Below are positions 1 through 56,594 of a stretch of 64,000 nt of DNA, piece by piece. The notes beneath the pieces are model-generated. The model was not told where the DNA came from. It saw nothing but the letters and a program-made list of their open reading frames with translations, and did not search any database. Source of the stretch: Clostridia bacterium. Its GTDB lineage: Bacteria; Bacillota; Clostridia; UMGS1810. The stretch is from assembly GCA_017481205.1 (NCBI GenBank), contig JAFUPN010000036.1, positions 1 through 64,000 on the forward strand. The letters run 5' to 3'. The translations under genes were made by a program, and so were the position numbers. Position 1 is the stretch's first letter, and each line of letters begins with the position of its first letter.

Positions 1-223
1 ACCACAGGCAACGACACACAGATGCAATAATGATACTCCCGTCTTGAACGCGTCACTGCATTGGGCGGTTGTGTGAGAACCACACAGAGGGTGAGAGTCC
101 CGTGGAGCCTGCCAAGGTCGTATGAAAAACGTATAAAATTTTAAAAAGTAATCAATATGATTTTTCGGAATATAATTATGAAGAATTGGGAAAATTTATT
201 CTATATGGAAGGAGGCCAACCAT
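1..223. other. Unassigned leader of the recombinase element
   Basis: I recognise no gene here. Positions 60-125 are GC-richer than the surroundings and contain two short stem-loops: TGTGTG/CACACA around position 70-85, then GGG/CCC around 88-101. Together they look like a structured RNA fragment, for example a group II intron domain I remnant, but this is not established. The stretch ends in a strong ribosome site (GGAAGGAGG) for the ORF at 224. It may hold one end of the mobile element carrying the recombinase. Confidence 0.3.
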
Positions 224-15441: not shown

Positions 15442-16287
15442 TTAAGTCTGGGAATATGCCTTTCGGTATCTGAGAGGCGATATGTTTTCCTCCTGCTTAA
15501 AAATATAAGAAAAATAATTGCTGTCGGTAAATCCGCATTTTTCTGAAATCTGAGATATACTGTCGTTTGTTTCTAAAAGCAAAATTTTTGCTTGCTTTAT
15601 GCGCACCTTCCTTATGTATTCACTTATATTTACACCGGTATCACTCTTAAACTTTCGCGACATATAGCCGGGACTTACATCATTCAGGTCAGCAAGCTTC
15701 TCAAGAGTAATATTTTCTGCATAATTCACATTGATATAATCAATTGCATGCTCTGTTATTAAATCGGTAATTTTAATTATATCACCATCCGAAGACTTCC
15801 GGATAAAATACACCAGCAATTCAAAGAGAAGATTTTTGTATATTTCATCTGAATACTCATCGGAATTTTTATATTCGGACAATATTCTAAACATAATATT
15901 ATCAATATTTTCCCTGGTATTATCATTGGCAACATACATTGGATTAAGATTAAATAAATACATTTTATCAAGCAGAGAATATGGTATATAATTTCTGGTG
16001 AATCTAAACAAAATGCGTTCATGTGGACTCGTATTATAATATACCCTATGTTCAGCATCGCAGGGAATTAATATCCAATCTCCGGGCTTGAGAATATATT
16101 TATTTTTACCTATCAGATGAACACAGCTTCCCTCCAAAAGATAATATAGCTCATAATATGGATGGTAATGGAACGGCATATCAAAGTCGTTGATATAATC
16201 AGCTCTTATTTTTTCGGCATAAAAAAAGCTTTTTGGGATATTCTTCCAATCATTCATCCTGATGTCTTTAAACGTTTCTCTTGCCAT
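15442..16287 (-). CDS. AraC-family transcriptional regulator with cupin sensor
   Basis: A cytoplasmic regulator of 281 residues. The N-terminal cupin-like domain (HYHPYYELYYLLEG, LKPGDWILIP) probably binds a sugar or sugar acid. The C-terminal part has the two AraC helix-turn-helix motifs (ITLEKLADLNDVSPGYMSR and ISQISEKCGFTDSNYFSY). The start was taken at ATG 16287 because GGGAGG lies seven bases upstream; earlier in-frame codons lack this. It is transcribed toward the polysaccharide genes with its own terminator between, so it most likely activates the promoter at 15237-15298 when pectic or related sugars are present. The inducer is unknown. Confidence 0.9.
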   Translation of the reverse strand: MARETFKDIRMNDWKNIPKSFFYAEKIRADYINDFDMPFHYHPYYELYYLLEGSCVHLIGKNKYILKPGDWILIPCDAEHRVYYNTSPHERILFRFTRNYIPYSLLDKMYLFNLNPMYVANDNTRENIDNIMFRILSEYKNSDEYSDEIYKNLLFELLVYFIRKSSDGDIIKITDLITEHAIDYINVNYAENITLEKLADLNDVSPGYMSRKFKSDTGVNISEYIRKVRIKQAKILLLETNDSISQISEKCGFTDSNYFSYIFKQEENISPLRYRKAYSQT

Positions 16288-16511
16288 ATTGTTACCTCCC
16301 GTAACCAATCTGCAGCCATGACCCTTGTCAAAAAATAGTATCATTAAAATATATTATATTCTAAACAGACAAGCAGTGTCAATACCAATATTCCCCGGTG
16401 CAGTGATATTTTTTTATTATATTTCCGAGTATTTTAACGAAGTATGAGATAAGATTTATATTTCAAAACCGTCTTTAGTATTGGTTGCTAAGGCTATTTA
16501 TTGCAAACTAA

Positions 16512-16564: not shown

Positions 16565-16614
16565 AGTTAATATTGATATTTATGATTTTGTCAAGTTATG
16601 GACAAAAAATTTTG

Positions 16615-16803
16615 TCGATATGCAAACTTCGTTTGCTCGATATTTTTACTATCGTAAAATCGATATGTTTTCCCTTCGGTCAAACTCGATATGATATGAA
16701 TTCTCGTTGCGTTAGCAACATATCGAGCCGTAAGGCATATCGAGTGCGAAGCACATATCGAGAATTCGTAAGAATTCATATCGATGCATTGCTATTGCAA
16801 TGC
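16615..16803. repeat. TCGATATG/CATATCGAG hairpin array, copy 1
   Basis: The constant word runs forward on the left side (TCGATATG at 16615 and 16660, CTCGATAT at 16636, CTCGATATG at 16685) and inverted on the right (CATATCGAG at 16719, 16736 and 16754, CATATCGA at 16777). Between words lie self-complementary spacers: GCAAAC-TTCG-TTTGC, TTGC-GTTA-GCAA, CC-GTAA-GG, TGC-GAA-GCA, AATTC-GTAA-GAATT, and a closing GCATTGC-TATT-GCAATGC. GAATTCTCG (16698-16706) can also pair with CGAGAATTC (16759-16767) around the three inverted words. It lies 36 bp past the stop of the 16840 gene. See copy 2 at 39359-39573. Confidence 0.9.
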
Positions 16804-39287: not shown

Positions 39288-39598
39288 GATTCAAATCTCT
39301 CCTTAAAATATGTTATATAATTAATATAAAATCACTGACCATTTAGATGCCGATTTTGTCGATATGCAAACTTCGTTTGCTCGATATTTTTGTTTCACAA
39401 AATCGATATGTTTTGCGGTTCAAACCGCCGAACCCTACAGCAAAACTCGATATGATATGAATTCTCGTTGCCGTAAGGCAACATATCGAGTGCTTTAGCA
39501 CATATCGAGTCATTTATGACATATCGAGAATTCTGCAAGAATTCATATCGACGATTTCATCTCAGATGAAATCATTATACCATATTCTCAGGATTTTG
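39288..39598. other. Gap filled by hairpin array copy 2
   Basis: No gene. Apart from the array at 39359-39573 there is only an AT-rich stretch (39300-39340) that may hold the isomerase gene promoter. Confidence 0.65.
39359..39573. repeat. TCGATATG/CATATCGAG hairpin array, copy 2
   Basis: Same orientation and plan as 16615-16803. Forward words are at 39359, 39380-39388, about 39402 and 39445-39454; inverted CATATCGAG at 39482, 39501 and 39520, and CATATCGA at 39544. Spacers differ from copy 1 but still pair: TTGCC-GTAA-GGCAA, TGC-TTTA-GCA, TCA-TTTA-TGA, and a closing GATTTCATCT/AGATGAAATC stem. The third left-hand hairpin is enlarged (GTTTTGC to GCAAAAC) and holds a nested GCGGTT-CAA-ACCGC stem followed by CGAACCCTACA. 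It ends 25 bp past the stop of the HAD gene. Confidence 0.9.
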
Positions 39599-40324
39599 TC
39601 AATCAAGAAGTTCTCTCACTGCCTCGGGAAAATCAAGATAATTGTCTATAGTAATAAATTTAAAGTCAGATTTGTACACAGACTCATCATTGCCTCCCAT
39701 GCCGTAATCATCGCCGATAAATACCACATTGCTGTGGCTGAGACCCTTTTCTCTGCAGTACAGGTCAAGTGCATAATATTTATTGTAGGGAGCGGGCGCC
39801 ATATCAAAGGATGAAGAGCCGCCCACAAAAACAATATAATCCTTAAAGGTGCTTACCACATCGTCATATATTTTTCTTCTTTTGGAGCGGTCAGGGTCAA
39901 AAGCAAGCTTATCCTCCTGTACAGCCTTTGTGCCGAGTATAGGGAAGGTAACACAGCCCGAGGGATGATATTCCACACTGTCGCCGGCATATGCTTCAAA
40001 GCCGTATTTTTTGCGCATAGTATCAACTCTCTGTGCCACAGACTCTCTGTCACATTCAAAAACAAGGTCACGGATAATATCCATCTCGCCTGTCATGCTG
40101 TTGTATTCGCCATACTGGAGTCCGTAGTTTCCTATAATATCCACAGGGAATTTTTCAAGCTGATTGAAAATTCTCATAACCTGACCTGCGCCCACCATAA
40201 GCAGCTTATACTTTTTTGCAAGACTCTCAAGCGTTCTTCTGTTTGCCTCGTTAAGGGGCTGCTTGTGCTGGGTAAGGGTTCCATCAAGATCCATGGCGAT
40301 TACTTTTATGTCTTTTGTATTCAT
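39599..40324 (-). CDS. HAD-superfamily (type IIB) phosphatase, phosphomannomutase-like
   Basis: A cytoplasmic enzyme of 241 residues. Motif I is MDLDGTLT, with both catalytic Asp. Motif II is probably LLMVGAGQ, and motif IV is FIGDDYGMGGNDESV near the C terminus. A cap with SVEYHPSGCVTFPILG resembles the phosphomannomutase/Cof type. Start ATG 40324 has AAGGA eight bases upstream. It probably dephosphorylates or isomerises a sugar phosphate. It lies upstream of the sugar isomerase gene and divergent from the DeoR regulator gene at 40489, which probably represses both. Confidence 0.8.
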   Translation of the reverse strand: MNTKDIKVIAMDLDGTLTQHKQPLNEANRRTLESLAKKYKLLMVGAGQVMRIFNQLEKFPVDIIGNYGLQYGEYNSMTGEMDIIRDLVFECDRESVAQRVDTMRKKYGFEAYAGDSVEYHPSGCVTFPILGTKAVQEDKLAFDPDRSKRRKIYDDVVSTFKDYIVFVGGSSSFDMAPAPYNKYYALDLYCREKGLSHSNVVFIGDDYGMGGNDESVYKSDFKFITIDNYLDFPEAVRELLD

Positions 40325-55088: not shown

Positions 55089-56594
55089 TTATACACACGG
55101 TATGGTTATTGTAAAGGTTGAACCGATATCCAGCTCACTGTCAACATCTATGGTACCGCCATGAAATTCCACAGCCGCAAGTGCTATTGAAAGACCCAGA
55201 CCGGTACCGCCGGTCTCTCGTGAGCGTGCTTTGTCAACCCTGTAAAATCTTTCAAAAATTTTTCCCTTATCCTCTTGAGAGATACCCACACCATTGTCCT
55301 TTATGGTGATAACAACATTTCCACCCAACCTTGATGCATTAACCTCAACCTTGCCGAATTCTTTGGAATACTTGATGGCATTGTCAACCACATTATATAT
55401 TCCCTGCCACAGCATATCCTTATTTGCCATGACATACAGATTCTCGTCGCTGTTGAAATCAAGGGTAATCTCGTCACGGTTAGCAATGGGCATAAGATTT
55501 TTTTCTATTCCCGAAAGTATCTCAGATACAGATGTTATATCCATACCTGCCTCCATTTTTTCGGAATCGGTATCTATTTTTGTTATATACAAAAGCTTAT
55601 TTACAATCCTGTTGAGCCTGTCAACCTCATTGTTCATATCAAGGAGAAATTCTCTTACATACTCCATGTCAATATCATGGGTCTGTATGATAGAATCTGC
55701 CATAAGCTTAATGGAGCTGAGAGGGGTTTTGAGCTCATGGGATGCATTGGATACAAACTCAACTCTCTTGTGCTCCAGATTGAGCACCTTTTCACTCATA
55801 TCATTAAATGCCACTGCAAGCTTGGATATCTCATCACTTCCGCGGATATCAAGCTTTTCATCCAATATACCGTCGCTGGACATAGAGGTGATTTTGTCTG
55901 TAAAATCGACAATTCGCTTGGTTATAAGATTTACAACAACAAATATAACCAGTCCCACAAGAAAGGATACTATAATTGTTATTATCCAGATATCCTTCTC
56001 GGTTGCATTTTTGAATGCAGATATATCGTCTGTGGTATAAATTATGTTTACCACACCAGTCACATTGCCACTTTGAAGTATTGGAGCCGCAGCATCGAGA
56101 GTGAGAATACGGTCGTCATTATAATACTGATCATAGCCGCTCTTGCCCCCTATGGCTGTCAATACAGATGGTTTTATCTGTGCCTTCCTGAGCACATTGT
56201 GATTATTCTGTGAGTCAAATATCACAACAGAATCCCTGTTAAGAATAAGCACTCTCATGCGGGCATCGCCCAAAATACTCTTGACAAAAGTACCAAATTC
56301 ACCGTCTACGAAATCACCGTCGGAGCTCATATATTCCGGTGCAAAGCTGGATACCACATTTGCCATGGCAGTAACATTCAGCTTTTGATCATTGTACATA
56401 TAGCCACTCATGGAATTGAGCAGATAATGACTTACCAGAATCAGTGTAAGCAGCATTACCGCAAAATATGTAATTACAAGCCTTGATGTAATACCGTTGA
56501 ATTTTATATAATTGGATTTAATGAACGTCCTTAAAATAATAACCAGCTCCCCACTTAGTAAGCAGATATACAGGTTCTGCACTGTTCGGCTCAA
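55089..56594 (-). CDS. Sensor histidine kinase, WalK/PhoR-like
   Basis: A membrane sensor kinase. With the longest frame (501 residues): transmembrane segments at about 37-60 and 201-222 flanking an extracellular sensor, HAMP (223-276), HisKA with phospho-acceptor His286 (FVSNASHELKTPLSSIKLMA), and a HATPase with NVVDNAIKYSKE, IKDNGVGIS and GTGLGLSI. The start is uncertain. TTG 56594 overlaps the response regulator by about 77 bases and has a weak site. A start close to the regulator's stop (before KSNYIKFNGI) would need a rare codon after AAGGA. It pairs with the upstream regulator. Likely role: cell-envelope homeostasis. Confidence 0.9.
   Translation of the reverse strand: MSRTVQNLYICLLSGELVIILRTFIKSNYIKFNGITSRLVITYFAVMLLTLILVSHYLLNSMSGYMYNDQKLNVTAMANVVSSFAPEYMSSDGDFVDGEFGTFVKSILGDARMRVLILNRDSVVIFDSQNNHNVLRKAQIKPSVLTAIGGKSGYDQYYNDDRILTLDAAAPILQSGNVTGVVNIIYTTDDISAFKNATEKDIWIITIIVSFLVGLVIFVVVNLITKRIVDFTDKITSMSSDGILDEKLDIRGSDEISKLAVAFNDMSEKVLNLEHKRVEFVSNASHELKTPLSSIKLMADSIIQTHDIDMEYVREFLLDMNNEVDRLNRIVNKLLYITKIDTDSEKMEAGMDITSVSEILSGIEKNLMPIANRDEITLDFNSDENLYVMANKDMLWQGIYNVVDNAIKYSKEFGKVEVNASRLGGNVVITIKDNGVGISQEDKGKIFERFYRVDKARSRETGGTGLGLSIALAAVEFHGGTIDVDSELDIGSTFTITIPCV

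Follow-up and report, generated by a model that had tools for sequence, protein, structure and literature searches.

Dispersed arrays of inverted seven-nucleotide words in gut Clostridia and their linkage to genes for 23S rRNA intervening-sequence proteins

REP sequences and RAYT transposases combine dispersed palindromic units with one partner gene, and solo copies far outnumber the gene. STRR sequences are counted among the heptanucleotide tandem repeats of cyanobacteria and other bacteria. Such repeats have been described with the units TAACTGA (PMC4679880) and GGGGATT/GGGAATC (PMC4692102); the accessible text of both papers makes no mention of four-helix bundle proteins or of IVP (23S rRNA intervening-sequence protein, PF05635, a four-helix bundle). 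According to the accessible text on the Coxiella intervening sequence (IVS), 23S rRNA IVS are selfish, sporadic, horizontally moving and seated at hairpin tips, and the S23/IVP proteins, which are known from them, have solved structures and an unknown function (PMC4990558); no word array is described for an IVS in the accessible literature. IVP proteins are homologous to Avd, a reverse-transcription accessory protein of diversity-generating retroelements (PMC10053308). The original description of Gut-1 (Weinberg et al. 2010, PMC2864571) treats it as a noncoding RNA confined to human-gut DNA, and it has been without known function since then. Literature searches for Gut-1 function, or for IVP together with repeats, returned nothing beyond the source papers.

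The analysed stretch of 64,000 nucleotides (the window) belongs to a 2.2 Mb MAG of the class Clostridia that is 71% complete. Two array copies were located in it, both with the minus strand as sense strand and both following the plan H0-W1-H1-W2-H2-W3-H3-W4-H4-J-W5'-H5-W6'-H6-W7'-H7-W8', where W is TCGATAT (four times forward), W' is ATATCGA (four times inverted) and the spacers are self-complementary (Table 1). Eight occurrences of the 9-mer CATATCGAG were counted in the window, always within the two elements (expected 0.39; maximum of 2 in 100 shuffles). Both copies lie where the original prediction of a nine-base word shared at like positions had placed them. The spacer changes quoted there were likewise correct: CC-GTAA-GG against TGC-TTTA-GCA, TGC-GAA-GCA against TCA-TTTA-TGA, TTGC/GCAA becoming TTGCC/GGCAA, and a different closing stem. 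A CRISPR-like array was ruled out by the self-complementary spacers and by the inversion of the words halfway.

Both copies are intergenic with protein genes on either side, and neither is inserted in a 23S rRNA helix; rRNA was absent from the Rfam matches in the window, as was an IVP (PF05635) gene from the window itself, so that both copies are solo (gene-less). In these respects (intergenic, not in rRNA, no gene) they differ from IVS, with which relatives of the element share one protein family, S23/IVP (PF05635, TIGR02436). With heptanucleotide repeats they have in common 7-nt words, intergenic position, scatter and horizontal distribution, whereas the units of those repeats stand head to tail without spacers and the words of the window are separated by hairpin spacers of approximately 10–37 nt. 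The tail GGCATCTAAAYCR, approximately 12 nt past the last word, is common to solo arrays of different words (e.g. L021, L503, L512 and L516) and was not seen 3' of IVP genes among the copies read; in the own genome the tail GGCATCTAAAYC is rare (5 places). Elsewhere in the window, a pemK RNA motif (RF02913, 57 bits) was detected at the very start (27–105, plus strand), and an AraC-type regulator is encoded at 15442–16344 (minus strand), with 72 paralogous matches in the own small genome and more than 100 in two relatives.

Table 1. Coordinates of the two array copies in the window (sequences given for the sense strand).
Feature	Position	Strand	Basis
Copy 1, whole array, 8 words and H0-H7	16610..16803	-	fold z = -7.0, 0/200 shuffles equal it
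Copy 1 H0, flush with word 1, GCATTGC-AATA-GCAATGC	16786..16803	-	sequence and spacer-arm analysis
Copy 1 word 1, TCGATAT	16778..16784	-	sequence
Copy 1 hairpin H1	16762..16777	-	sequence and RNAalifold
Copy 1 word 2	16755..16761	-	sequence
Copy 1 hairpin H2, GTGC-TTC-GCAC	16744..16754	-	sequence and RNAalifold
Copy 1 word 3	16737..16743	-	sequence
Copy 1 hairpin H3, GCC-TTAC-GGC	16727..16736	-	sequence
Copy 1 word 4	16720..16726	-	sequence
Copy 1 hairpin H4	16706..16719	-	sequence and RNAalifold
Copy 1 J segment, GAGAATTCATAT, complements word 1 and H1 5' arm (alternative helix)	16694..16705	-	
Copy 1 word 5', inverted, ATATCGA	16686..16692	-	sequence
Copy 1 hairpin H5, tandem GA/GA, GTTTGACCGAAGGGAAAAC	16667..16685	-	tandem-GA scan
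Copy 1 word 6'	16660..16666	-	sequence
Copy 1 hairpin H6	16644..16659	-	sequence and RNAalifold
Copy 1 word 7'	16637..16643	-	sequence
Copy 1 hairpin H7	16622..16636	-	sequence and RNAalifold
Copy 1 word 8', partner of word 1	16615..16621	-	sequence and RNAalifold
Copy 2, whole array, solo	39354..39573	-	fold z = -7.6
Copy 2 -35 box TTGACA, overlaps stop codon of upstream HAD hydrolase gene	39597..39602	-	
Copy 2 -10 box TATAAT	39574..39579	-	
Copy 2 H0 hairpin, GATTTCATC-TGA-GATGAAATC	39553..39573	-	sequence and spacer-arm analysis
Copy 2 word 1	39545..39551	-	sequence
Copy 2 word 2	39521..39527	-	sequence
Copy 2 word 3	39502..39508	-	sequence
Copy 2 word 4	39483..39489	-	sequence
Copy 2 J segment	39454..39466	-	sequence and J:H1 complementarity
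Copy 2 word 5'	39447..39453	-	sequence
Copy 2 word 6'	39403..39409	-	sequence
Copy 2 word 7'	39381..39387	-	sequence
Copy 2 word 8'	39359..39365	-	sequence
Copy 2 tail 3' of word 8', about CAAAATCGGCATCTAAATGGTCAGTGATTTTATAT	39322..39354	-	common to solo copies elsewhere; absent 3' of IVP genes among the copies read

The original prediction knew of no named family with this plan, but the Rfam Gut-1 RNA (RF01706) proved to be the left half-array of a like element with the word GUGAAAU. Its model spans 77 nt, one half and one word, whereas the full element has eight words and an IVP partner. It scored 73.9 bits (gathering threshold 50) at L408, on the left half of an array with the word GUGAAAU that immediately precedes an IVP gene, and it generally matched the left half of GTGAAAT- and TGAAATA-word arrays beside IVP genes; because of these matches, Gut-1 is taken as half of one word family of the element. 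Of 147 relatives, 36 had matches, and a single genome had as many as 28. In the window, whose copies have a different word, the model gave no match at gathering (50 bits) or permissive thresholds, and Rfam yielded no other family of relevance at either setting. The window copies resemble Gut-1 in that repeated single-stranded words alternate with three hairpins, and arrays of both types are dispersed in many copies in gut Clostridia. The window array is a variant of the Gut-1 kind with a different word.

The search for further copies that had been proposed with the original prediction yielded 12 full or near-full arrays plus fragments in the own genome. The pattern CATATCGA-N6..24-CATATCGA matched 35 times there, as against 0 for the reversed control pattern. 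Among relatives it was found in 22 of 147, in many families, with a few matches due to chance and the reversed pattern almost absent. A stricter three-word pattern gave no match in approximately 190 genomes from the remaining classes of this phylum, and in pattern scans of viral and genome contigs the matches outside Clostridia were mostly chance. Between copies, hairpins were exchanged, gained or lost, and in one copy (L025) the interior is deleted between ATATGAATTC and GAATTCATATC. MAGs of gut Clostridia and one viral contig also carry arrays that follow this plan with different hairpins. Taken together, the matches show the array to be dispersed in its own genome and across families of Clostridia. 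A third word, AGTTATA/GTGATAT, was observed in the same plan in the own genome (L033, G000:C4 ~55834-55996; L035/L489, G000:C38 ~63877-64001), and one of these arrays stands back to back with a TCGATAT array, with a shared terminator between them.

For structure prediction, 14 sense-strand copies were folded with RNAalifold with no structure supplied. The result was a ladder of W1:W8', W2:W7', W3:W6' and W4:W5' with the hairpins H1, H2, H4, H6 and H7 on both sides of it; 12 of the 61 consensus pairs had changed on both sides with pairing kept. On either strand, the fold of each copy surpassed those of dinucleotide shuffles by approximately 7 standard deviations. Spacer arms were compared in a set of 271 different spacers from 76 arrays. 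Stems of at least 4 bp were formed by 74% of same-copy arms, by 19% of 5' arms combined with the 3' arm of another copy and by 16% of shuffled spacers; for stems of at least 6 bp the values were 30%, 2% and 2%, respectively. These data show that a single strand can adopt a predicted ladder in which four word pairs form the rungs and hairpins flank them on either side, the spacers compensating copy by copy. Selection for structure had been proposed from two loci, with the proviso that further copies exist and compensate; both hold.

A competing 12-nt helix, which excludes the word ladder, is predicted to form when the central J segment pairs with word 1 and with the 5' arm of hairpin H1. A J:H1 helix of at least 9 nt can form in 20 of 38 arrays compared with 2 of 190 shuffles, and examples come from different families (GATATGAATTCT, GATATAAATCTC, AAATTTGCCC), in keeping with the alternative folds anticipated earlier. 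Tandem GA/GA mismatch hairpins (short stem, loop of 3–5 nt) were counted 21 times on the sense strand and 0 times on the antisense strand. Because these hairpins are sense-only, a single-stranded sense molecule (RNA or ssDNA) is favoured over a symmetric DNA cruciform.

For linkage analysis, a word-array detector without preset word was applied to the 450 nt upstream of 118 Clostridial IVP genes. A score of at least 5 was obtained for 58 of the genes and of at least 7 for 42. By comparison, 944 dinucleotide shuffles never scored above 4 (0 at 5 or more), and background windows of the same genomes reached at least 5 in 2 of 309 cases and at least 7 in 0 of 309. About half of the 118 genes, including one deep clade, had no detectable array. 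An ordinary degenerate repeat or chance palindromes without biology, for which only the high A+T content could be cited, are refuted by the 9-mer, pattern, detector, spacer, covariation and background-window counts, which leaves that explanation a vanishingly small probability.

Words beside IVP genes include TCGATAT, GCGATAT, GCTAAAT, TGAAATA, GTGAAAT, ATGAAAT, ATGAATT, ATGATAT and ATGATGT. In Clostridia the halves are ordered >>>><<<< before the gene in 47 loci and >>>> gene <<<< in 7, and the array keeps a constant spacing of about -215 to -20 from the gene start. Hairpins of the window copies were found directly upstream of an IVP gene in a sister genus (L059), and the same array together with an IVP gene occurs in the relatives L059, L056, L071, L170, L180 and L190. 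The own genome has only one IVP gene; the array upstream of it shares the plan but has the word GATGAAAT. The IVP partner of the window copies was not seen, because this gene belongs to another word clade; the missing match may reflect the incompleteness of the MAG (71% complete). Apart from the host target rlmD and, in an array-less clade, pyrG, no other gene recurred as a neighbour of IVP genes or arrays. No autonomous transposase, recombinase, reverse transcriptase or template/variable repeat recurred near them either, which sets the arrays apart from diversity-generating retroelements with Avd.

On a tree of 114 IVP proteins with 11 word states, the word required 11 changes (shuffled mean 32.3, minimum 28), and the host family required 29 (shuffled 31.3). 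Because the word tracks the IVP tree and host family does not, word and protein travel together, and between hosts. Part of this match is simple co-inheritance of an array adjacent to its gene; the hairpins between the words, which are just as adjacent, vary. The tree and detector data thus show that same-plan arrays with other words are strongly linked to IVP genes, that the word follows the IVP lineage and that spread has been horizontal. Two unannotated human gut phage scaffolds (L540 and L541; MT835815 and MT835590) carry an IVP gene and a word array, ATATCAC and TATTTCA, respectively. Such scaffolds are a possible vehicle for spread.

Insertion sites were compared next to hairpins and promoters. 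Gut-1-type copies lie directly behind the T-run of intrinsic terminators, mostly those of tRNA genes (by visual inspection), and window-type copies mostly behind a hairpin that follows a sigma-A promoter with 17-nt spacing. A direct flush hairpin is common 5' of W1 and rarer on the 3' side; counts of flush hairpins that allow a second upstream window are inflated, and only direct H0 cases are trustworthy. Many arrays are immediately preceded by a hairpin, which in many cases is a transcription terminator or follows closely on a sigma-A promoter. Duplicated flanks were seen by eye only at L499 and L500, and no rule of target-site duplication emerged from the copies. The comparisons revealed no clean empty site: the gene preceding copy 2 has four orthologues without the array, but gene order differs there as well. 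The 3' end of rlmD holds three ATATCGA units. Comparison of empty sites at rlmD was uninformative, as other genomes have a different, near-identical insertion there, apparently ICE-like. In four genomes of the family (L457, L458, L461 and L465) the DNA after rlmD is near-identical and probably represents the terminus of an integrative element with rlmD as its site.

Insertion flush with hairpins resembles structure-guided targeting. Together with the perfect inverted-word symmetry and the good folding of both strands, it would suit an array that acts at the DNA level, as a cruciform or an attC-like folded single strand, and is moved by an integrase or transposase whose gene lies elsewhere, with IVP as a passenger. 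We regard this as improbable: the tandem G.A hairpins are confined to one strand (21 versus 0), no recombinase recurs beside the arrays, a Y1 HUH transposase (PF01797) gave no match in the own genome (71% complete), and a passenger IVP leaves the tight word-IVP match unexplained.

The promoters bear on a different possibility, namely that the array is a cis-acting 5' untranslated leader RNA in which the ladder and the J:H1 helix form a switch for IVP autoregulation, solo copies being leaders that other genes captured and that spread by ordinary recombination. Arrays of the ATATCGA and ATTTAGC families have a sigma-A promoter on their 5' side and the ribosome-binding site on their 3' side. The promoter of copy 2 is a perfect TTGACA-17-TATAAT (12/12 match with 17-nt spacing; 0/20 shuffles) and reads into the next gene, and the alternative helix in 20 of 38 arrays would also fit a switch. 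However, the IVP promoter was located by eye 3' of the array in the TATTTCA, ATTTCAC and ATATCAT families, and therefore the array is not always part of the IVP mRNA. Most of the up to 28 Gut-1-type half-array matches per genome do not adjoin IVP, the gene stands between the halves in seven loci, and carriage on phages and plasmids as well as spread across families point to mobility. A leader RNA is thus considered unlikely.

In other phyla, plasmid genes for four-helix bundle proteins (Bernardetia, Treponema, Nostoc, Planktothrix, Dolichospermum and others) have bare tandem heptamers upstream. Lag-7 heptamer runs of at least 17 within 300 nt upstream were found for 10 of 20 IVP genes and for 1 of 105 other genes of three such plasmids (Fisher p = 1e-8), the 20 loci not being independent (11 of the matched records are Nostoc). 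At six loci (L538, L542, L546, L547, L554 and L555) the heptamer upstream of the gene recurs downstream as its reverse complement, giving forward array, gene and inverted array. Repeats like the described heptanucleotide repeats thus flank IVP on plasmids, and the window copies represent the Clostridial form, with both halves together and without the gene. Some plasmid IVP genes lie between defence-operon genes (cas2-IVP-cas1 in L550 and L555, IVP-cas1 in L549, hsdS-IVP-hsdR in L544, and DUF1156-IVP-Swt1 in L552 and L556), and heptamer repeats adjoin them in several cases.

That plasmid IVP genes of other phyla sit intergenically between inverted heptamer arrays would also be expected if causality were reversed, with IVP homing, as into safe sites, into word repeats that had arisen and spread by some other route such as replication slippage or fold-back synthesis. 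Heptamer repeats that lack IVP abound in certain bacteria, judging by the accessible text of the two repeat papers (PMC4679880, PMC4692102), in line with this order of events. Yet the 4+4 plan, the constant gene spacing and the conserved long-range pairings need selection, and the array word follows the IVP lineage across host families; reversed causality is accordingly rated as quite improbable, little above a slight chance.

Probably, with appreciable room for doubt, the window copies are solo forms derived from a mobile element that is linked to IVP and carries words recognised by this protein. As the only gene recurring beside the arrays, IVP would supply the trans-acting function for the spread of arrays, full or solo, by recognising their word repeats, the folded sense strand being its most likely target. 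The two arrays in the window and other solo copies would be non-autonomous, comparable to MITEs or to REP with RAYT. The logic is that of REP/RAYT, with the difference that a four-helix bundle protein takes the place of the Y1 HUH enzyme as partner. We know of no catalytic activity of IVP, which counts against this reading; the DNA-joining enzyme may be a host enzyme. Binding, transposition, and action as RNA or as DNA are all inferred here. The original prediction missed the IVP link, the horizontal transfer and the preference for sites behind a hairpin, because these lie outside the window.

On a wider scale, IVP/S23 proteins could be the word-recognising partners of an unrecognised class of mobile elements, namely inverted 7-nt word arrays that spread, full and solo, behind hairpins; this is put forward tentatively, at somewhat less than even confidence, as a joint account of Gut-1, of IVP-flanking heptamers and possibly of the 23S IVS. 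The proposed class comprises bare heptamers in Cyanobacteria, Bacteroidota, Spirochaetota and Chloroflexota and hairpin-spaced words in gut Clostridia, and no description of the wider system of inverted 7-nt word arrays plus IVP was found in the searchable literature. The unification is based on arrays that adjoin IVP, on words that follow the IVP lineage and on a forward/inverted plan kept across phyla. The linkage would tie together three loose ends: the function of IVP, the Gut-1 RNA and the heptamer repeats, whose origin is not agreed. It predicts that each IVP binds its own 7-nt word, which would provide a testable lead on the function of the IVP family.
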